Shown piece by piece: positions 22,435-44,495 of a DNA stretch of 64,000 nt (the first letter of the stretch is position 1; each line of letters begins with the position of its first letter). Below the pieces are notes generated by a model. It made no database searches and had not been told where the DNA came from. It worked only from the letters and a program-made list of their open reading frames with translations. The position numbers were made by a program, and so were the translations under genes. The stretch is from Candidatus Marsarchaeota archaeon (GTDB taxonomy: Archaea > Micrarchaeota > Micrarchaeia > Micrarchaeales > Micrarchaeaceae). The stretch covers positions 186,001-250,000 of the forward strand of contig JAMCYM010000003.1 of assembly GCA_023473665.1 (NCBI GenBank). Reading direction: 5' to 3'.

Positions 22435-22995
22435 ATGCTAGTACCGCCCAGCTACAGGCACCTGAAAAGGGGCCCGCAAGTCGTGCTCCCGAAGGACATC
22501 GGGCTCATAATCGCATATGCCGGAATAGGCAAGAACAGCGTATGCGTCGATGCCGGCACGGGCAGCGGCTGGCTCGCTGTCTCGCTGGCGAGGGTATGCA
22601 GGCGCGTTGTCAGCTATGACGTGCGCGACGACTTTCTGAAGATAGCTGGTAAAAACAGGGAACTGGAAGGCCTTGACAATCTAGAACTCGTCAACCGCGA
22701 CGCCACCAAAGGCATAAGCGAAAGGGACGTAGACCTGATAACGCTCGACATGGCGGATTCGTACAAGGTGCTGAGGCACGCCTACAAGGCGCTCAAGGTC
22801 GATGGCTTCGTGGTCGGATACCTGCCCCACATGGAGCAGGTGAAGAAGTTCGTAAGCACGCTTGAAAAGCAGAAGTTCAGGAACATATTCACAATAGAGG
22901 CCATAGTGCGCGACATGCTTGTCAGGGAGGAAGGCATGCGCCCATCAACGAAGGGCGTATGGCACACCGCCTATCTGACGTTCGCCCAGAAGTGA
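22435..22995 (+). CDS. trmI: tRNA (adenine-N1)-methyltransferase TrmI-like, short form
   Basis: A 186-residue SAM methyltransferase. The SAM-binding loop is VDAGTGSGWLAVSLA, followed by SYDVRDDF and NRDATKG; the C-terminal RPSTKGVWHTAYLTFA is characteristic of TrmI, which makes m1A57/58 in the tRNA T-loop. Typical archaeal TrmI is about 250 residues with a small N-terminal domain. That domain is missing here, and an in-frame TAG lies four codons upstream, so it has not been mis-started. Substrate binding may therefore depend on the tetramer core alone. Confidence 0.82.
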   Translation: MLVPPSYRHLKRGPQVVLPKDIGLIIAYAGIGKNSVCVDAGTGSGWLAVSLARVCRRVVSYDVRDDFLKIAGKNRELEGLDNLELVNRDATKGISERDVDLITLDMADSYKVLRHAYKALKVDGFVVGYLPHMEQVKKFVSTLEKQKFRNIFTIEAIVRDMLVREEGMRPSTKGVWHTAYLTFAQK

Positions 22996-23158: not shown

Positions 23159-23506
23159 TCACTTAGCTACGGGCAATTGCCTAGGCTTCGAGGAGCGCGC
23201 ATAGCGCTTTATCAGGTCGACAGCCTGGCTTATCGCGCGTTTCACATCTGCAGTAGTTCGCGCCCCGGTGCATATGATCTTGCCGTTCTTGAAGAGCAAT
23301 AGCGCGCTCTTCGGCTCGTGCACCTTGAATATCGCGCCGGGGAACTGCTCCGGCTCGTAGTCGACGTCATACGAGAGCTTCGCCAGGCCGTAAAGGTCAA
23401 GCTCCGTGTTCAGGTCGGCGCTTGCCACTATGTTCTCGACCCTGTAAGTGGGTTTTAGCACCACATGCGCGCGATTCACGTGCGCTATACTAGCTGCCCT
23501 CGCCAT
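23159..23506 (-). CDS. Single-repeat TATA-binding-protein-like factor
   Basis: A 115-residue protein containing one TBP repeat (YRVENIVASADLNTELDL, then YEPEQFPGAIFKV, PKSALLLFKNGKIICTGA). Canonical archaeal TBP has two such repeats in about 180 residues forming a saddle on the TATA box. Only one repeat is encoded here, with no second one in the 77 bases upstream or in the gap downstream, and the frame is intact. A homodimer would be needed to rebuild the saddle. It may be the cell's TBP or a paralogue; the basic N and C termini are additions. Confidence 0.8.
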   Translation of the reverse strand: MARAASIAHVNRAHVVLKPTYRVENIVASADLNTELDLYGLAKLSYDVDYEPEQFPGAIFKVHEPKSALLLFKNGKIICTGARTTADVKRAISQAVDLIKRYARSSKPRQLPVAK

Positions 23507-23599
23507 TTCAGCACCATGCCCCTTTCGTCAAAAAGATATTCGTCAAGAAGGCATAAATAGGTTGTGCATCAAATTACGATGCTAGTTTGGTGAGTCGCG

Positions 23600-23884
23600 A
23601 TGACAAAGAGATCCGCAGGCCTCTTCTCGGGCCGCACAAGGCACCTGGCAAGGCACCACATGCCCTCGAAACAGGGCGTGCGCAACGTCATAAAGGACTT
23701 CAACGTGGGCGACAGCGTTGCGATAGTGCCAAAGGGCAACTTCCGCGACATACCGCACCCGCGCTACAGGGGCAAAGTGGGCAGGGTAGTAGAGAAGCGC
23801 GGCGCCGCTTATGTGGTAGAGCTCAACGTCATGAATGCGAAGCGCCAGCTTGTGGTCGCGGCAGCGCATCTCGAGAAGGCGTGA
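23600..23884 (+). CDS. rpl21e: 50S ribosomal protein eL21
   Basis: A 94-residue archaeal/eukaryotic large-subunit protein. The family blocks KRSAGLFSGRTRHLARHH and YRGKVGRVVEKRGAAYVVEL are present, and length is standard. GGTGA lies before ATG 23600, and a TATA-like GCATAAATAGG lies near 23553. In many archaea eL21, Rpo4, DUF655 and KsgA are neighbours; here eL21 converges on the DUF655-rpo4 pair. Confidence 0.95.
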   Translation: MTKRSAGLFSGRTRHLARHHMPSKQGVRNVIKDFNVGDSVAIVPKGNFRDIPHPRYRGKVGRVVEKRGAAYVVELNVMNAKRQLVVAAAHLEKA

Positions 23885-23887
23885 GCC

Positions 23888-24454
23888 CTATCTGGCCCTT
23901 CTTACATAGGGCTTTGTGAACATGTAAAACCGTTCGCTGCCCATAAGCTCCATTATTATCCTCTCAGCTATGAGCTTTGCCGGATCCTGCAGCAGCGAAA
24001 CCCTGGCCGTTATGTCCGCGAAGTTCTCGAACTTCCTCTCCTCCCTTGCCTTGAGTATCGCCTGGAGGTGCTTCTTCCCTATGCCGGGCAGCAATTCCAG
24101 CGAGTGCTCCCTTATGTTAAGCGGCCCGGCGTTGTTGAACACGTCGACGAACCTCTTCTCGTTCGCCTTGATTATCTGCAGCACTATCCTATCGATGTCG
24201 CCCTTAGCCGTCTGGGTCAGCTCGTCGTAGCTTATCCTGTACTTTATGATCTCTATCTTGTTGCGCTCGTCCCTGCCTATGTAGACTCGCTCACCTATGC
24301 TCATTTGCGTCCCGGCCTTGGGCGTGGCCTCAAGCAACGTGAACCACTCCTCGCCGATCAGCTGCGCTACCGGCTCGGAGCGCATCGAGAAGGACTTGCC
24401 GCTCGCAAGAAAGTCAAGCACAACCGCATACTCCTCTCGTCTCTCGCCCTCCAT
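23888..24454 (-). CDS. DUF655 protein with helix-hairpin-helix region
   Basis: A 188-residue archaeal conserved protein. The N-terminal part (EEYAVVLDFLASG) resembles an OB-like beta region. A helix-hairpin-helix segment (HSLELLPGIGKKHLQAILKA) suggests nucleic-acid binding. Family members are usually next to rpoF and ksgA, as here next to rpo4, so a role in RNA or ribosome metabolism is plausible but unproven. ATG 24454 is chosen over GTG 24463. It converges with eL21 with a 3-base gap. Confidence 0.85.
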   Translation of the reverse strand: MEGERREEYAVVLDFLASGKSFSMRSEPVAQLIGEEWFTLLEATPKAGTQMSIGERVYIGRDERNKIEIIKYRISYDELTQTAKGDIDRIVLQIIKANEKRFVDVFNNAGPLNIREHSLELLPGIGKKHLQAILKAREERKFENFADITARVSLLQDPAKLIAERIIMELMGSERFYMFTKPYVRRAR

Positions 24455-24485
24455 CCCAAACACCCTACAGAATGCATCAGAACAC

Positions 24486-24821
24486 TTAAGCCTTCTCGTT
24501 TATTATACCAAGCAATTTCTTAAGGTCCTCGTCGCTCGGCATGTTCTTTTCCTTGGTCAGCGTCTGCTTGAGCAGCAGCAGGCTCTTCGGCCATACGCTG
24601 AGCACGTTATCAAGCGATGCGTCGCTCACCAGGCCCGTAGCCTTTATCGCCGCCTTAACTTTTTCGTACTGTTTCTTCGGCACCTTGAACTTCTCGGAGT
24701 GCTCGTAGGCTATCTGCTGCTCGTACGTCATCGGCTTGGCGCTCTTCTTGCGCTCCTTGAGGATTTCGTACACCTCATCTATCGACACAGTACCCTTTTC
24801 CTCAACGCTTTTGCCTATCAC
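24486..24821 (-). CDS. rpo4: DNA-directed RNA polymerase subunit Rpo4 (RpoF)
   Basis: About 111 residues of the Rpb4/RpoF stalk subunit, which pairs with Rpo7 on RNA polymerase and contacts nascent RNA and initiation factors. The start IGKSVEEKGTVSIDEVYEIL and the block MTYEQQIAYEHSEKFK match the family. GTG 24821 follows GGGGGGTG and gives the usual N terminus (MIGKS); GTG 24827 is an alternative. It is followed after about 30 bases by the DUF655 gene. Confidence 0.88.
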   Translation of the reverse strand: MIGKSVEEKGTVSIDEVYEILKERKKSAKPMTYEQQIAYEHSEKFKVPKKQYEKVKAAIKATGLVSDASLDNVLSVWPKSLLLLKQTLTKEKNMPSDEDLKKLLGIINEKA

Positions 24822-24925
24822 TTGCACCCCCCTTCAACTTTATTAATCTATACCTTTCAATATAAACTTGGACCTTCAGGCTCATATGCGTAAAATACAT
24901 CTATAAAGCTTTTGTGGGTATTGCG

Positions 24926-37882: not shown

Positions 37883-38197
37883 ATGAAGAGATCAACTAAA
37901 TTAGCTGCCGTAAGCATTATTTTCTTTATATTGGGAGCTTTGTTTGTTTTCACTGACACTCTTTTAGGACTAATTTTCCTAGTCTTATTCTTGGTATTTA
38001 TTATAGCAGCATCAATAGCAACTGTCCATGAACGCGGTGGTTTTAGAGCATGGCGGAGTAGACGTATAGAAGACCAAAGACAATACGATGCAAATAAAAG
38101 AGAACATAGAGAATTTGAGAAAATGAGCGAAATGAAGGGATATTACGAGGAGAAGGGTAAGATTAAAGCACAAAGAGAAAATAAACGATGGCCGTAG
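37883..38197 (+). CDS. Small membrane protein with charged tail (island 1)
   Basis: A 104-residue protein. Two hydrophobic helices (about 5-50) are followed by a strongly charged helical tail (RSRRIEDQRQYDANKREHRE). ATG 37883 lies about 30 bases after TCTTTTTATTA, fitting a leaderless start; the frame is open upstream without support. It is AT-rich in codon choice, unlike the flanking chromosome. Function unknown. Confidence 0.5.
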   Translation: MKRSTKLAAVSIIFFILGALFVFTDTLLGLIFLVLFLVFIIAASIATVHERGGFRAWRSRRIEDQRQYDANKREHREFEKMSEMKGYYEEKGKIKAQRENKRWP

Positions 38198-38336
38198 TTT
38201 CGTAGATTAATTGAAGCGAACATTAATAGCTTATTTTTCTTCTTGCAAAGTGACTAACTGATTATATGAATATAGCTACGCTATCTATAAAACGTAAATA
38301 TTGTGCTGACGAAACACATAAAAGAAGGTAAAGATT

Positions 38337-38346
38337 AAATTATATA
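38337..38346 (+). promoter_or_regulatory. TATA box for the island Nudix gene
   Basis: AAATTATATA centred 27 bases before ATG 38369 predicts a leaderless message and supports that start codon over ATG 38381. Confidence 0.45.
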
Positions 38347-38368
38347 GAGAGATTGCTAAAAAAGTCGA

Positions 38369-39247
38369 ATGGTTCAGTGTATGGTAAAATCAAAATTAGG
38401 AGATACATCATCATTCTCCACTAAAATTAAAAATTTCTTTCTATTGTGGAGGCGAGGTTTTCGCCCACGAATAGGTGTATTGTACCATCCAAAAACAATA
38501 AGAATAAATAAAAATTACACAAAGATTATTTTACCATCGCCTCAACCAGGTATAAGGGAAGAATGGACAAAACGAATAAGAACAAACATAAGTGTTAAAG
38601 CAAGATATAAAGATAGGAGCTTACCCTGTAACTTCAAGGTTGAAAATGAGGATACATGCAGCGTATACCTTAGAAAACCTCACAGCAAACAAGTGCTGCT
38701 TACACTTAAAATTCCGAATTCTGATCTAATTTTTGATAAAAAAGTGTATAAAGAAAAAGGGTGGCTTCATGTAGATTATGTTGTTGAAATAAAGAAACTA
38801 TCTGAATCTAATACTGCAGATATGAGTAAGTACTTATCTTTGCTAAACGAATATCATAGCATTAATCAAATAATTAGACGAAGAGGTACAGCAATAGTTG
38901 ACACACCAAACGGTATATTAGTGGCTTCTCATCACAAAACATGGTTGTTGCCAGGTGGTGGTGCTAATAAAGGAGAGAGCAGAGAAAAAGCGGCAATAAG
39001 GGAGCTTAGAGAAGAAACTGGACTAAAGGCAACCAAAGTAACATTTTTGTTTGAATATAATGAACCTGATGACGGAAGAAAAATACGTAATTTACACAAG
39101 GTCTTTCTAATTGAAGCTAAAGGAACACCAAAACCAAATCATCATGATGTACATCATCTAGCTTATTGGATGCCAGATTCAGGAATACAGTTAAGCAGAA
39201 CTACCAAAACAATTGTTGATAAGTATATTAATGAAGTCAAAAAGTAA
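38369..39247 (+). CDS. Nudix hydrolase-domain protein with unknown N-terminal domain
   Basis: A 292-residue protein. The C-terminal third carries a full Nudix box (GGANKGESREKAAIRELREE followed by TG, about residues 198-220) with all catalytic glutamates, after LLPGG; Nudix enzymes cleave nucleoside diphosphates linked to another group. The first 160 residues are basic, contain no recognisable domain, and may bind nucleic acid or a membrane. Codon use is AT-rich like its neighbours. A TATA box 27 bases upstream supports the start. The substrate cannot be predicted. Confidence 0.78.
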   Translation: MVQCMVKSKLGDTSSFSTKIKNFFLLWRRGFRPRIGVLYHPKTIRINKNYTKIILPSPQPGIREEWTKRIRTNISVKARYKDRSLPCNFKVENEDTCSVYLRKPHSKQVLLTLKIPNSDLIFDKKVYKEKGWLHVDYVVEIKKLSESNTADMSKYLSLLNEYHSINQIIRRRGTAIVDTPNGILVASHHKTWLLPGGGANKGESREKAAIRELREETGLKATKVTFLFEYNEPDDGRKIRNLHKVFLIEAKGTPKPNHHDVHHLAYWMPDSGIQLSRTTKTIVDKYINEVKK

Positions 39248-39268
39248 AAAGTATAAAATAGAAAATTA

Positions 39269-39874
39269 CTACTTGCTTAAGATTTTTCTATTTAATAAAC
39301 CTTTAAAGTAAGAAACATTTAACAAACCAATAATAAATGTAATAATACTAAATAGTAAAAGGGTGAATATTATAGTTAAGAGAGCTAATTGTAATAATTT
39401 GTCTAATGCAGTGATTAATAATAGCACCTCTGAAAATAGGGATAATATAGAGAATATGGATGTCAACATAAACAATATCGCAGTACTTTTAAAATTACTT
39501 CCTTCTTTCAGAATTTCTAATCCTATTAGTGGGGAGATTGTAGCTAATATTCCTGTAGCAGCAATTAAAGAAGGAGACAAAGCGGAAATATTAAGCAGTC
39601 CTAGTATGGCTGATATATAAACTAGTGTAAAACTTGAACTGAATAAATAAATAAGCAAATTAGCTGTAATTATTCTTTGTTTTTTAGAAAAATAATTGTA
39701 TATGATGATTAACATTGTAATTATAGTAATTGCAAAAGGTATGTCTTCCCATAACGATTTTGAAGCAAGAGCGGAAAACTCCATTCCAACAATCACAAAG
39801 ACAATTAGGAGTAGAAGTATGACTATGCAAAATATTAGCTTATAATAGTTTTTTAATATTTTATTTGATCTCAT
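39269..39874 (-). CDS. Polytopic membrane protein (island 1)
   Basis: A 201-residue protein, almost wholly hydrophobic, with about six helices. A motif near residue 115-133 (ATISPLIGLEILKEGSNF) recurs in similar form in the membrane protein at 41950-42591 in the second AT-rich block. A TATA-like TTTATAATAAAAA lies 20-30 bases upstream of ATG 39874. It is the last gene of a three-gene minus-strand set. Function unknown. Confidence 0.55.
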   Translation of the reverse strand: MRSNKILKNYYKLIFCIVILLLLIVFVIVGMEFSALASKSLWEDIPFAITIITMLIIIYNYFSKKQRIITANLLIYLFSSSFTLVYISAILGLLNISALSPSLIAATGILATISPLIGLEILKEGSNFKSTAILFMLTSIFSILSLFSEVLLLITALDKLLQLALLTIIFTLLLFSIITFIIGLLNVSYFKGLLNRKILSK

Positions 39875-39918
39875 ATGTAGTCCCTTTTTATTATAAACTA
39901 ATTTTTAATGTTTTAAAA

Positions 39919-40497
39919 CTAGTTTAGAAAATATAAATCACCATTAATTAAAAACAAAGATGATTGGGGCATTAATTGTACTTTGGTATTACTTACTCCA
40001 CACAGAACAGGTATCAAAAACGTTACAGGATGTCCTCCATAATTCTGAACTGCGGCCTTAACAGATACGGCGATACCCAGAGACATAGAGCTATTTTGTT
40101 CCAAATTTTGTAAGTCATTGCAAAAGTAAATGTCTGTTCCTTGCTCGCAAGTAAAAGATTCAGGATAGCCACTGTTCATTGGTAAGCCAACATAAGACCA
40201 TGTTGCTAACCAATTATTAATATTTGCTCCTTTTTTAAATACACTTACATTTACAATGTTTATTGAGGTAGAAGAAGGTATTTTGTTTTCTAAAATACCG
40301 AGGTTTTGATTAACATTGTTTTCGCATGCTTGTATAATACTTTGATTATAAGATACCTGAGAGTTCACGATATTTGAGTTTGTGTTTGTTGAAATAACTG
40401 AATTTATATTTGTAATAATAGAATAGTGTAGTAACAAATATACTAAAATTCCTCCTATAATAAGACCAAATATAAAGACTAGTAAACTTTTTGCCAT
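39919..40497 (-). CDS. Signal-anchored extracellular protein (island 1)
   Basis: About 192 residues: an N-terminal helix (SLLVFIFGLIIGGILVYLLL) then an external domain rich in Asn and Ser with N-x-S/T sites and four cysteines. ATG 40497 lies 28 bases after TTTATAAG, consistent with a leaderless start, and is preferred over ATG 40518, which nearly touches that box. No family recognised. Confidence 0.55.
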   Translation of the reverse strand: MAKSLLVFIFGLIIGGILVYLLLHYSIITNINSVISTNTNSNIVNSQVSYNQSIIQACENNVNQNLGILENKIPSSTSINIVNVSVFKKGANINNWLATWSYVGLPMNSGYPESFTCEQGTDIYFCNDLQNLEQNSSMSLGIAVSVKAAVQNYGGHPVTFLIPVLCGVSNTKVQLMPQSSLFLINGDLYFLN

Positions 40498-40555
40498 ACT
40501 ATTACTTTGCATACACATCTTATAAATTTTTTGTTTATTACAATTTTAAATGGTT

Positions 40556-40924
40556 TTAAATTTTAATGGAGCTATATTTTAAATGGTGTTTTCTTAGCAC
40601 TGTTAAGATGACAAAAACAACAGCCCCGAATCCACCAATCCATCCGAACAAATCAATTTTTATAGAACTTATTAGCAGCAAGTATGTTATAAGTGTTATA
40701 CCACCAACATATAATAAGCCACTCCAAGCGGATTTAGAAGCATACACAACCCCGATTGCAATTTCAAATAGCATCATAAGAAATGAAATTTCAAAACTAG
40801 ATGTCTTCAGAAACGAAAAGTTAAAGCCTTGTATATTGCTTAATGCTGAAAAAATTATAGAAAATGTTACTGCAAACAAAGGGTGAGCAAATCCCTCTTT
40901 GAAAGAATCTTTGTTACCATCCAT
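40556..40924 (-). CDS. Four-helix membrane protein (island 1)
   Basis: A 122-residue protein with four predicted helices and short loops, ending with a basic tail (LRKHHLKYSSIKI). AATAAATATTTATT lies about 20-35 bases before ATG 40924. It stands about 100 bases from tRNA-Arg(CCG). Function unknown; holin-like or small transporter roles would be speculation. Confidence 0.52.
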   Translation of the reverse strand: MDGNKDSFKEGFAHPLFAVTFSIIFSALSNIQGFNFSFLKTSSFEISFLMMLFEIAIGVVYASKSAWSGLLYVGGITLITYLLLISSIKIDLFGWIGGFGAVVFVILTVLRKHHLKYSSIKI

Positions 40925-41022
40925 GTATTAACTTCTTTCCGAATAAATATTTATTCATTTCCATTTTTCTGAAATTTTGATGTCCAAAATCTTTGAGTTA
41001 TATATAACCCCCACTATTAATT

Positions 41023-41095
41023 GCTCCCATCGGGATTTGAACCCGAGTCTCAGGCTCCGGAAGCCCACATTCTGTCCAAGCTATACTATGGGAGC
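41023..41095 (-). tRNA. tRNA-Arg (anticodon CCG)
   Basis: A 73-base gene on the minus strand. The acceptor GCTCCCA pairs with TGGGAGC; the anticodon stem TGGGC/GCCTG encloses TTCCGGA, giving CCG. The T-arm TCGGG/CCCGA encloses TTCAAAT. The D-stem (GTAT/GAAT) contains an A.A mismatch, also present in the other tRNA-Arg here. No intron and no encoded CCA. The adjacent base 41022 gives an A discriminator. Reads CGG codons. Confidence 0.9.
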
Positions 41096-41117
41096 TTGAC
41101 AGCAATCATACCACGGC

Positions 41118-41127
41118 AATAATTAAA
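41118..41127 (-). promoter_or_regulatory. TATA box for tRNA-Arg(CCG)
   Basis: TTTAATTATT on the minus strand is centred about 27 bases before the tRNA 5' end, the expected archaeal spacing. Confidence 0.4.
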
Positions 41128-41174
41128 GTCCTTCATGTGCAAAGAGTGCGTGCACATAGTGCATAGGCAATCCA

Positions 41175-41840
41175 ATGCTGAAACTTATCGGAGAGACGCC
41201 GCTGCCCACAGACCTGGGCGGCTGGACATACATGGTGTTCCGCGACAGCGCCGATGGCAGGCAGCACACCATGATGGTATACAGGAAACCGAGCGACATA
41301 AAGGCGCATCCCAATGGCGTGCTAGTCAGAGTGCATTCCTCGTGCGCGACCAGCGAGCTCTTCCATGCGAACAACTGCGAATGCAGGGAGGAGCTCGACG
41401 AGGCCATGCGCAGGATAAGGAGGGAAGGCAGGGGCGTGCTCGTGTATCTCGACCAGGAAGGCGCCGGAAACGGCATAGAGGCCAAGATCAAGGCCTACGC
41501 CAAGGCGTTTAGGTGGGATGGCGGCAATGTCGTGCCTGCCAAGGACCAGAAGACCGGCGCAGACCTGAGCATCTATTCGGCTTACGAGAAGCTCGGCTAC
41601 AAGAAGGAGCAGAGGTCCTACGCTGCCCCTGCTGCTATGCTGAAATACATAGGCGTGAAATCTGTAAGGCTGCTCACCAACAATCCAAGCAAGATCGAAG
41701 GGCTGGAAAAGGCAGGCATACCTACAAAGGCGGTCAACATACACATATCGCCAAAGAACAAGATCGTTGCCGAACACCTTGCCGCCAAGGCCCAGCAGCT
41801 CGGGCACAACATAAACGGCAGGCATCTGAAGGTGAAGTGA
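41175..41840 (+). CDS. GTP cyclohydrolase II-like protein (RibA family)
   Basis: A 221-residue protein of the GTP cyclohydrolase II fold, which opens GTP in bacterial riboflavin synthesis. Zinc cysteines are present in VHSSCATSELFHANNCEC. Aligned by eye to E. coli RibA, Tyr105 (IKAY) and the nucleophilic Arg128 (KKEQRSY) remain, LLTNNPSK is conserved, and Asp126 is Glu. The usual RQEGRxxGL is changed to DQEGAGNGI, removing two arginines, and a loop of about 20 residues is inserted before LSIYSAYEKLGY. Archaea mostly use an unrelated enzyme for this step, so substrate or chemistry may differ. It is GC-rich and sits between two AT-rich blocks. Confidence 0.8.
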   Translation: MLKLIGETPLPTDLGGWTYMVFRDSADGRQHTMMVYRKPSDIKAHPNGVLVRVHSSCATSELFHANNCECREELDEAMRRIRREGRGVLVYLDQEGAGNGIEAKIKAYAKAFRWDGGNVVPAKDQKTGADLSIYSAYEKLGYKKEQRSYAAPAAMLKYIGVKSVRLLTNNPSKIEGLEKAGIPTKAVNIHISPKNKIVAEHLAAKAQQLGHNINGRHLKVK

Positions 41841-41851
41841 CGCCCCCTCCG
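41841..41851. repeat. Putative attL (copy of tRNA-Arg 3' end)
   Basis: CGCCCCCTCCG immediately follows the ribA-like stop codon and duplicates the last ten bases plus discriminator of tRNA-Arg(GCG) at 43282-43292. The pre-integration order would be the ribA-like gene directly facing the tRNA 3' end. Confidence 0.55.
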
Positions 41852-41949
41852 TCTCCCCTCGTAAATTAAGGAACCCGCCTTCGATAAAGTTATATTTTAG
41901 CGAGAATAAAACATTTAGATTTATCTAATATAATAGATATTTGAGGCTT

Positions 41950-42591
41950 ATGGTAGAAAGAGCTAAAAAGAAAGTAGATAGTTACACTAAAAATTCCCAA
42001 ATTCTCACAATATTTTTTATTTTAGCCATAATCTCGATTTCTTTAAGAATATACTCATATTCTGTATATGTTTTACAAATTATTTTCTCTTTAATATTTT
42101 TAGTGATTGCAATATGCCTATTCTACAAATTTTTAAAAGGGATTACCACTGAAAAGCTCAAATTTAGATTCAAAGTTATTTTACTAGTGTTATTATCCTC
42201 TTTTATTATAGCCGCTTCTTCAATCGGTATAAACTCATCTCAACAAGTTATAGATATTTGTGGAGATTTAGTTATTGCTAGCACCATAAGCATACTGATA
42301 GGACTAGAATTTTACAAAGACTCTAAAAACTACATTCTAAATATTAAAACAAAAGACAAAGAAAAACTCAAAGAAGAAATAGATATGGCATTTTTCCCTA
42401 TTGTATATACTGTTATTGCTTTGTTTTTCATAGTTAGTGCTTTAATGTATTCAGCTTATCCAGGAGACATAATGTTAATGGATTTATCAATTATGCTTAT
42501 GCTACTAGGTATATCTGCGCCAATAGAGCTACTTTATGAACGCCTACTAGTAAAAATGACTTATTTCAAAAAGATTAAAGCAAAGGTGTAA
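41950..42591 (+). CDS. Polytopic membrane protein (island 2)
   Basis: A 213-residue protein with about six hydrophobic helices and a charged central loop (KTKDKEKLKEEIDMAFF). Residues around 110-127 (STISILIGLEFYKDSKNY) resemble a segment of the 201-residue protein in island 1, suggesting common descent. ATG 41950 is preferred to TTG 41941; TCTAATATAATAG lies 20-30 bases upstream. It heads a three-gene plus-strand set with gaps of 14 and 16 bases. Function unknown. Confidence 0.55.
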   Translation: MVERAKKKVDSYTKNSQILTIFFILAIISISLRIYSYSVYVLQIIFSLIFLVIAICLFYKFLKGITTEKLKFRFKVILLVLLSSFIIAASSIGINSSQQVIDICGDLVIASTISILIGLEFYKDSKNYILNIKTKDKEKLKEEIDMAFFPIVYTVIALFFIVSALMYSAYPGDIMLMDLSIMLMLLGISAPIELLYERLLVKMTYFKKIKAKV

Positions 42592-42605
42592 AAATAGTAA
42601 CTAAA

Positions 42606-42845
42606 ATGAAACAGTATTTAGGCTCAATCTTCGTAGCTATAGCGATTATATTATTCGTTGCATCTGACATAGTTTATACTAACTATTACCATAAAGCAGT
42701 ATCAAGCGTTTCTAACTTTGGCTCATTGTTCACCGGCATATTTTGGTTCTTTATCGGTATAATAGCAGGAGCTATATTCTTTGCGATAGGGTTAATATGG
42801 GTTTATCCCAAAGGAGCTAAATGGTTAGCAGAAAGAGGTAAATGA
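42606..42845 (+). CDS. Two-helix small membrane protein (island 2)
   Basis: A 79-residue protein with helices at about 6-24 and 38-62 and a short basic C terminus (KGAKWLAERGK). It lies 14 bases after the preceding gene and 16 before the next, implying one transcript. No family recognised. Confidence 0.5.
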   Translation: MKQYLGSIFVAIAIILFVASDIVYTNYYHKAVSSVSNFGSLFTGIFWFFIGIIAGAIFFAIGLIWVYPKGAKWLAERGK

Positions 42846-42861
42846 ACGTATAAGTGATTAT

Positions 42862-43170
42862 ATGGAAAAGGAAGACAAGGAACTATTAGAAAAAATAGAT
42901 AAAATCGGAAATATTTTAATCGAAAATCAAAAGATTTCAATAAAAAATATCGGGGTCAACACATTTCTACTTACTACTGCTATACTTTTATCTGTTAGTT
43001 CTATTTCCATATCTATAATAAAAGGAATAACGATGTTTTATATTTATGTTTTAGTTATTATTTCCATAGCTGCTAGTGGTATAATAAGTTATTTACATTT
43101 AATCCTGCTGAATAAAAACCTAAAACAAAAAAAGAAAAATGCTAATCTTCCTCCATCAAACCCTGTATAA
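42862..43170 (+). CDS. Small membrane protein with acidic N terminus (island 2)
   Basis: A 102-residue protein: a charged helical N terminus (MEKEDKELLEKIDKIGNILI), two hydrophobic helices (about 33-80) and a lysine-rich tail (NKNLKQKKKN). The layout recalls small toxin or signalling membrane proteins, but no specific family is evident. It is the last gene before the inverted repeat and tRNA-Arg(GCG). Confidence 0.5.
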   Translation: MEKEDKELLEKIDKIGNILIENQKISIKNIGVNTFLLTTAILLSVSSISISIIKGITMFYIYVLVIISIAASGIISYLHLILLNKNLKQKKKNANLPPSNPV

Positions 43171-43282
43171 AATTGTAAAGAAGAGATAATTTTCTTTCAA
43201 GCATTCATCGTCTTTATATCACGCAGGAAAACCAAATAAGTGTTCAAACCTTTTTATAAGGGTTCCTTACTTGAAGTTAAAC

Positions 43283-43355
43283 GCCCCCTCCGGGATTTGG
43301 ACCCGGGTTTCAAGCTCCGCAAGCTCGCGTTCTGTCCAAGCTATACTAAGGGGGC
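43283..43355 (-). tRNA. tRNA-Arg (anticodon GCG)
   Basis: A 73-base gene. Acceptor GCCCCCT pairs with AGGGGGC; anticodon stem CGAGC/GCTTG encloses TTGCGGA, giving GCG; T-arm CCGGG/CCCGG encloses TCCAAAT. The T-loop has C where T55 (pseudouridine 55) is almost universal. The D-stem shares the A.A mismatch with tRNA-Arg(CCG). No intron or encoded CCA; base 43282 gives a G discriminator. Reads CGC and CGU. Its 3' end is the apparent integration site of island 2. Confidence 0.88.
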
Positions 43356-43380
43356 ACAGTAAAGCAATATCTGATAACTA

Positions 43381-43390
43381 TTTATATATC
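43381..43390 (-). promoter_or_regulatory. TATA box for tRNA-Arg(GCG)
   Basis: GATATATAAA on the minus strand begins about 26 bases before the tRNA 5' end, close to ideal archaeal spacing. Confidence 0.5.
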
Positions 43391-43430
43391 AGTGTCGTTT
43401 GCTTATTAAAACCGCGCACTTATCATCGGT

Positions 43431-44495
43431 TTGAGCGATGTTAGCGTGTTCCACACCTATTTAACAATCTTGATACCTGCCATTGTCGCGTTTGTGATAA
43501 CGCTGATCGCGACAAAGTTTATCATCGGCTACATGCGCGAGGCAGGAATAACGATAACCGACCACAACAAGGCCGACAAAAGGAAGCTGCCCAGCGGTGG
43601 CGGCATAGCAGTCGCGTTCGGCTTCACCATAGGCCTGCTTGCATATATATTCGGTAGCAGCTTCAATCTCTATTCGCCAGTGGTGCATCTGTACGAGCTG
43701 TTCGCTGTTCTTACTGCAGTGCTGCTGATAACTGTAAGCGGGTTCCTTGACGAGCTGGTGTTCAGGGGCGATGTGCAGAAGCTCACTGTCACAAAGGACA
43801 GGAAGGACACGAAGAGGGGCCTGAGGCAGTGGCAGAGGCCATTGCTCACGCTGGTAGGGGCGCTTCCATTCATGGCGATCAATGCAGGCGTGTCTACGAT
43901 AGAGCTGCCGTTCATAGGCCAGGTGTCGTTCGGGCTCTTCTATCCGTTGCTGATAATACCGCTTGCCGTCATATTCGTATCAAACTCATTCAACCTGCTC
44001 GGCGGCTTCGACGGAATAGCGAGCGGCAGCGCGCTGGTCCTCAGCGGGGCCATGCTGCTCTACGGCATACTGTTCAGCAGCTACATAGGCGCGCTTCTGT
44101 CAGGCGTGCTCTTCGCCACAGTGCTCGCGTTTTTCCTCTTCAACGTCTATCCTGCGAAGATCATACCTGGCGACAGCTTTACTTTTGGCGTGGGCGCAGC
44201 CCTCCTTGGCATAATGGTGCTGGGCAACATGGAGGCTTTCGGAGTGATAATATTCCTGCCTTTCTTCGTGGAGTTCTTCCTGCATTTGCGCAAGAAGTTC
44301 AAGGTCACAGACCTGGGCAAGCTGCAGCCTGACGGCACGTTGGCGTCACAGTACGGAAAGAAGGTCTACAGCTGGACGCACCTTATCATGAACATGAAGC
44401 GCTGCAAGGAATGGGAAGTGTCGCTCTACATGTGGTTGATAGAAATAGGGTTCGTGGCACTGGCCTTCGGGCTAAAGTTCCTTAATCTCTTATAA
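43431..44495 (+). CDS. GlcNAc-1-phosphate:polyprenyl-phosphate transferase (GPT/AglH-like)
   Basis: A 354-residue polytopic enzyme of the PNPT family, which moves a sugar-1-phosphate from a UDP-sugar to dolichyl phosphate to start N-glycan assembly. About ten membrane helices are visible. Family signatures: TDHNKADKRKLPSGGGIAVA near the N terminus, SGFLDELV, NSFNLLGGFDGIASGS and PAKIIPGDSFTFGVGA. The sugar is inferred. TTG 43431 is the only suitable start upstream of the first helix. Dolichol kinase-like and cis-prenyltransferase genes lie within 6 kb. Confidence 0.87.
   Translation: MSDVSVFHTYLTILIPAIVAFVITLIATKFIIGYMREAGITITDHNKADKRKLPSGGGIAVAFGFTIGLLAYIFGSSFNLYSPVVHLYELFAVLTAVLLITVSGFLDELVFRGDVQKLTVTKDRKDTKRGLRQWQRPLLTLVGALPFMAINAGVSTIELPFIGQVSFGLFYPLLIIPLAVIFVSNSFNLLGGFDGIASGSALVLSGAMLLYGILFSSYIGALLSGVLFATVLAFFLFNVYPAKIIPGDSFTFGVGAALLGIMVLGNMEAFGVIIFLPFFVEFFLHLRKKFKVTDLGKLQPDGTLASQYGKKVYSWTHLIMNMKRCKEWEVSLYMWLIEIGFVALAFGLKFLNLL

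Follow-up and report, generated by a model that had tools for sequence, protein, structure and literature searches.

Single-repeat TATA-binding proteins in Micrarchaeota and related archaea: a likely dimeric half-TBP and its apparent re-fusions

The 64,000-nucleotide stretch of DNA analysed here (the window) contains a gene that raises the question of how a TATA-binding protein (TBP) of half the usual size could serve its organism, and how such a protein came about. The first-pass annotation had described one TBP repeat in 115 residues, in a clean frame and with no second repeat adjoining, and both parts of this description are borne out. The gene, here called TBP-A (Table 1), has 115 codons, an ATG start and a clean frame and stop. 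The Pfam profile PF00352 matches its product once only, at residues 21-102 (model positions 2-85 of 85), with E=8.6e-26 and a score of 90.1 bits, above the curated cut-off of 22.9, and the full-length TBP models of NCBIfam give half-length matches only, with scores below cut-off; neither set of profile searches detects a second tandem repeat in the 115-aa chain. The parts of one repeat can be followed along it: the ENIVAS strand, the YEPEQFPG stirrup, the LLLFKNGK strand, CTGAR and the C-terminal helix. No second repeat adjoins the gene, since the genes on its two sides (L21e and a GCD14-like methyltransferase) are unrelated. The neighbours are mostly standard informational genes; for the product of the probable Rpo4/RpoF gene, a Pfam search at E 0.001 gave no match. 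TBP-A and the divergent L21e gene have in common a 93-bp intergenic region in which the candidate element GGCATAAATAGG is found, and the class of this motif, BRE+TATA, is supported statistically upstream of genes of the source genome (G000). Elsewhere in the window, G+C drops from about 0.55 to 0.31-0.41 at positions 38001-44000 and is uniform over the rest, which marks a probable foreign island.

Table 1. Coordinates of the two TBP genes and their surroundings; positions are those of the window unless a locus (L001) or a contig of the source genome (C3) is named
Feature	Position	Strand	Basis
TBP-A, single-repeat TATA-binding protein, TBP fold at about residues 21-106	23159..23506	-	ORF, PF00352, NCBIfam, AF2/Foldseek
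TBP repeat of TBP-A (PF00352 positions 2-85)	23201..23446	-	profile match, alignment, AF2
GGTG, Shine-Dalgarno-like, ending 5 nt before the TBP-A ATG (23504-23506)	23512..23515	-	inspection only
Candidate TATA element GGCATAAATAGG	23550..23561	.	inspection only
Ribosomal protein L21e, divergent upstream neighbour of TBP-A	23600..23884	+	PF01157
DUF655 protein, neighbour of TBP-A	23888..24463	-	PF04919
Probable RNA polymerase subunit Rpo4/RpoF, neighbour of TBP-A	24486..24827	-	sequence appearance and L21e-RpoF-DUF655 gene order
GCD14-type tRNA methyltransferase, neighbour on the other side of TBP-A	22435..22995	+	PF08704
TBP-A repeat, genome coordinates	C3:209201-209446	-	PF00352
TBP-B repeat, single-repeat paralogue on the same contig, 152 kb from TBP-A	C3:57174-57422	+	PF00352
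Apparent ACG start of TBP-B	L001:1447, G000:C3 ~57120	+ (gene)	sequence reading

The residues of TBP-A align to repeat 1 and equally to repeat 2 of the Pyrococcus woesei TBP, with 66-68 bits each. For 30 relatives AlphaFold2 predicts one TBP fold, most of whose core has pLDDT block means of about 90-95, and the best 44 Foldseek matches are all TBPs or TBP complexes, mostly with an rmsd of 1.0-1.4 Å over about 78 residues. The DNA-contact positions, which we take from established TBP structures to be Asn, Val and two Phe, are conserved at 94-100% in every group of one-repeat TBPs (half-TBPs), A and B included, with Thr as the relaxed position. A loss of these residues, named earlier as an observation that would speak against promoter binding, is therefore not what the residue conservation reveals. 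Two stirrup glutamates of TBP are known to bind Arg/Thr of TFB (PMC7221094). This acidic pair, E-P-E, is kept in 92-100% of the half-TBP repeats in every group. A TFB with two cyclin repeats was found in 26 of 28 genomes tested, and the source genome has one ordinary gene of this kind (G000:C2:169238-169762).

The source genome, that of a Micrarchaeote, comprises 779 kb and is 96% complete; the closest matches that carry a name come from Candidatus Micrarchaeota MAGs, and Ca. Micrarchaeum sp. A_DKE matches at 75% identity. A two-repeat TBP elsewhere in it, which the first-pass annotation had proposed to look for, was not found by a whole-genome search with PF00352: there are exactly two loci, both single-repeat, and the other TBP gene is the paralogue TBP-B. 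The earlier suggestion of a regulator working beside a normal TBP finds no support, as searches of the source genome and its close relatives turned up no two-repeat TBP apart from one probable contaminant (G012:C43, below). We consider it very unlikely that the protein is such a single-repeat regulator or a DNA-binding protein other than a TBP. Extra TBP paralogues do occur in some archaea, and a TBP-type domain is known from the literature in RNase HIII; however, the only other TBP of the source genome is a second half, some genomes of the sister family have one half-TBP as the only TBP found, the DNA and TFB contacts are fully conserved, and Pfam finds neither a fused catalytic domain nor any other domain in the 115-aa chain.

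The phylum-wide survey covered 295 genomes. Exactly two half-TBP genes (A and B) are present in 28 of the 32 genomes of the source genome's family (f1) that are at least 90% complete, while the sister family (f2) has exactly one in 11 of 19 genomes and two in the other 8. Relatives thus share the one-repeat form, a point that the first-pass annotation had proposed to test. Among the f2 genomes with one gene are G039, which is a single contig, and G037, which has three contigs and is 97% complete. Where two copies were sequenced in f2 they sort by sequence as orthologues of A and B, the lone copy is A, and often this one half-TBP is the only TBP found. The other micrarchaeal families examined have one repeat (f8-f11, f13-f15, f17, f19, f22, f24, f25, and f21 together with a divergent second copy) or two (f3-f5, f7, f12, f16, f18, f20, f23, f26 and mostly f6). 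In the domain-wide control of 392 relatives, a full-length canonical TBP is present in most archaea of other phyla, and one-repeat TBPs also occur in f35, f53, f70, f73 and f88. The 39 Asgard genomes searched have mostly two-repeat TBPs, and the canonical form is also found in other small-genome families (f32, f44, f51, f68, f80). That half-TBPs are an artefact of assembly or gene calling, each being half of a broken gene, would fit the fact that most of the genomes are MAGs, but we give this practically no weight: frame and stop are clean, the length is conserved, and the single-repeat form is kept in the complete chromosome NZ_CP060530 (Ca. Micrarchaeum sp. A_DKE) as well as in dozens of independent MAGs.

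Several individual genomes deserve mention. The two-repeat TBP on contig G012:C43 was considered as the one exception among the close relatives and rejected; it is probably contamination, because it has canonical sequence features (FSSGK, a 6-aa linker) and adjoins a transposase-like ORF on an 8-kb contig. One genus of f11 has two or three half-TBP genes (L140 in G087:C62; L085, L141 and L142 in G082), and in G087 two of them share a strand and are separated by about 1 kb. Extra TBP-like proteins of very divergent sequence are encoded at L143 (G151:C12) and L281 (G490:C1); these extras comprise a one-repeat protein on a very long branch and a two-repeat protein with 22-24% lobe identity.

The upstream regions of genes of G000 (96 regions) and G039 (68 regions) yield AAAcnTATATAt, in which a TATA box follows a BRE. 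This 12-mer motif was obtained by EM and judged against mono- and dinucleotide shuffles, with a log-likelihood of 87 vs. 48-61 for the dinucleotide shuffles in G000 and 65 vs. 41-52 in G039; the 49 upstream regions of G010 gave no TATA-like motif. Palindromy of the TATA box, considered as a sign of a symmetric dimer, does not tell the two forms apart, because the TTTAAA core of the canonical control is also palindromic. Since a full-length TATA box goes together with a half-length protein, and relatives carry two fused half-repeats, a dimer is the simplest reading, and half-TBPs most likely dimerise on the TATA box. The natural proteins with two half-repeats hint that the repeats work in pairs. 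TBP-A would accordingly be a half-sized general TATA-binding protein, two copies of which would join via the inter-repeat surface that links the lobes of a normal TBP. In the saddle so formed, the phenylalanines would intercalate into a TATA box of the ordinary 8 bp, and a stirrup would be presented to an ordinary TFB. With a single half-TBP gene the pair would be A:A, and with both genes, as in f1, it would be A:B and/or A:A. From the gene content we infer an A:A dimer, probably, where A stands alone and, probably, an A:B dimer in the source genome, whose two different half-TBPs make a heterodimer no less likely than a homodimer.

TBP-A and TBP-B differ at fixed positions (LLLF/IILF, NIVAS/NIVVS), and they also seem to differ in their start codons. 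In the TBP-B frame of the source genome, and of others, no ATG, GTG or TTG precedes the domain. The f1 copies of TBP-B have an ACG, behind a Shine-Dalgarno sequence of the GGTG type, at the place where the f2 copies have ATG-Ala. Apparently, TBP-B starts with ACG in 21 of the 28 f1 genomes whose B copies were examined, other start codons also being near in some; of the remaining copies, five have ATG and two are unclear. ACG is not enriched after Shine-Dalgarno-like sites as a general start codon in the genomes examined. Weak initiation at TBP-B might serve to fix the proportion of A to B. In the source genome, a PHP-domain-like ORF (TRVIADLHTHSRF..., reverse strand of L331 at offset 17835, G000:C3:100000-119999) also seems to start with ACG, which immediately follows a stop codon and is preceded by GGTGG.

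The repeat trees, which rest on 85 columns and limited taxa, place all one-repeat proteins except a single, very divergent extra copy in one clade (99; 100/99), and this clade also takes in both repeats of the two-repeat proteins of Micrarchaeota, f67 and f121. They bear on the idea that a canonical TBP was split into its N and C halves, which would now be A and B and work as an obligate heterodimer. The presence of two half-TBPs in nearly all f1 genomes and their fixed differences would agree with such a split, which is nevertheless extremely unlikely: A and B both fall within the half-TBP clade and are not divided between canonical N and C, genomes such as G039 and G037 have A without B, and B is common to f1 and f2. 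From the occurrence of B in both families, the A/B pair seems to go back to the later duplication of a half-TBP.

In the RpoB tree, which is based on one gene and likewise on limited taxa, the genomes of the half-TBP type form one clade (100/99 in one tree, 97 in another) opposite all canonical genomes, so that the half-TBP state most likely arose once and was then inherited. It would be ancestral within one small-genome archaeal clade, made up of Micrarchaeota and related phyla, and would most likely stem from the loss of one repeat of a canonical TBP. Such a loss is favoured because canonical TBPs occur in other small-genome archaeal families, and the half form is more likely a secondary reduction in this one clade. 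On the question of which repeat was kept the sequence is silent, since the profile log-odds of half-TBPs (medians mostly near 0-10) fall between those of the canonical N repeat (median -27) and C repeat (median +34); in AU tests the half-TBP clade may stand beside N, beside C or in between (p ~0.5 for the placements tried). The first-pass annotation had also remarked that a half-TBP would resemble the ancestor of TBP. For the architecture, one repeat per chain, this holds; on descent from that ancestor the AU tests favour neither answer.

The half-TBP lineage might instead have split off before the internal duplication, the primitive form being kept in Micrarchaeota and related phyla. Several features would suit this view: half-TBP repeats are neither N-like nor C-like by the log-odds, all half-TBP genomes stand in the one RpoB clade opposite the canonical ones, a tree constrained to keep the canonical N repeats on one side of a branch has a slightly better fit than the unconstrained one, and the canonical C repeats are set apart by a branch at 97/90, the last two allowing half-TBPs to sit between N and C. 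We regard it as unlikely all the same. A homodimer acting in both roles would drift to an intermediate sequence unaided, and grouping half-TBPs with the canonical N or C repeats of f32, f44, f51, f68 and f80 is likewise not rejected (p 0.50 and 0.48). Moreover, the archaeal root would have to lie between the half-TBP clade and all other archaea, these five families included, and to our knowledge published rootings do not favour that position. It is distinctly improbable, too, that half-TBPs descend directly from a pre-duplication TBP, with the canonical form arising after the clade had split off and the same fusion being repeated inside it.

Under the preferred reading of a secondary loss, the one-repeat state would later have been reversed by tandem fusion of half-TBPs. 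The lobes of canonical TBPs are about 27-56% identical (22-24% in one divergent f35 paralogue), and those of the two-repeat proteins in the half-TBP clade reach 81% in f61, 79% in f67, up to 79% in f6 and 76% in f23, with 36-58% in f12; the linkers are 7-13 aa long, mostly 8 or 9, in the latter proteins vs. 5-8, almost always 6, in canonical ones. A tree in which the N repeats of the clade's two-repeat proteins are made to join the canonical ones is 90 log units worse and is rejected (AU p=0.0014). The view that micrarchaeal two-repeat TBPs simply continue the canonical form was discarded on this test, with which linker length and N/C identity agree. The N repeats of all these proteins forced together cost 71 and are also rejected (p=0.006), which points to more than one fusion; a grouping of the f46-type and micrarchaeal N repeats alone is not rejected (p=0.15), which calls for some caution. 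In the RpoB tree two-repeat proteins are nested among one-repeat ones in three subclades, with a minimum of three changes, and the repeat tree puts the N repeats of the f46 group, of f92 and of f61 in each case nearest to the C repeats of the same group. To judge by these comparisons, the two-repeat TBP has re-evolved at least three times in the clade by half-TBP fusion. Gene conversion could raise N/C identity and so mimic a recent fusion; the length of the linkers and the species tree speak against it as the whole account.

Two further arrangements were seen. At L020, in the last 150 bases of contig G059:C39, the final part of the repeat of an f2 single-repeat ORF occurs a second time, unchanged and in frame, ahead of that ORF; this extra copy, cut off by the contig edge, is either a nascent tandem fusion or an assembly artefact. 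In f61, a 726-aa open frame at G383:C8:9538-10695 has four TBP-type repeat matches.

For the reading as a whole, a general half-TBP that forms a dimeric saddle on the TATA box and goes back to one reduction followed by at least three re-fusions, we estimate a probability of roughly 0.77. Within the clade there are living organisms in which a one-repeat TBP is the only TBP found, a stage with two different halves and several independent re-fusions. The proposed path, in which a homodimer gives way to a heterodimer and this to a fused pseudo-dimer, is open to study in extant proteins; some half-TBP organisms (Ca. Micrarchaeum) are in co-culture. The re-gluing of halves replays the supposed origin of the universal promoter-binding protein, and a symmetric TBP dimer raises the question of how promoter polarity is set.

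The Micrarchaeota genome papers searched do not mention TBP, surveys of DPANN archaea list it as present without comment on its structure, and terms such as half TBP or one-repeat TBP are absent from the literature searched. Ravarani et al. 2020 state in their methods that single-lobe TBPs were found in archaea, which they call consistent with Brindefalk et al. 2013 (PMC7221094). These are the same kind of object as the half-TBP; the available portions of that paper name no taxa and describe neither the absence of a normal TBP nor a pair of paralogues nor a re-fusion. The micrarchaeal cases may already be described in Brindefalk et al. 2013. That work aside, the existence of the object is known, and its distribution, its status as sole TBP, the paired paralogues and the re-fusions appear to be unreported in the literature searched.

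Among known systems, RNase HIII resembles TBP-A in having a single TBP-type domain per chain. In RNase HIII, however, this domain binds the substrate and is joined to the catalytic domain of the enzyme, whereas TBP-A stands alone and has TATA- and TFB-contact residues. The closer counterpart is the canonical archaeal two-repeat TBP (PF00352; Pyrococcus woesei 1PCZ/1AIS, S. acidocaldarius 1MP9, M. jannaschii 2Z8U), with which the half-TBP has in common the fold, the DNA- and TFB-contact residues, the TFB partner and BRE+TATA promoters. The canonical protein has two repeats per chain and the half-TBP one, with about 41-44% identity to an archaeal lobe, and the half-TBP signature F-K-N-G-K stands where canonical TBPs have F-(S/G)-S-G-K. 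The source genome has two unlinked half-TBP genes in place of the canonical two-repeat form, and the two-repeat relatives of the half-TBP differ from canonical TBP in their longer linker and their often very similar lobes.
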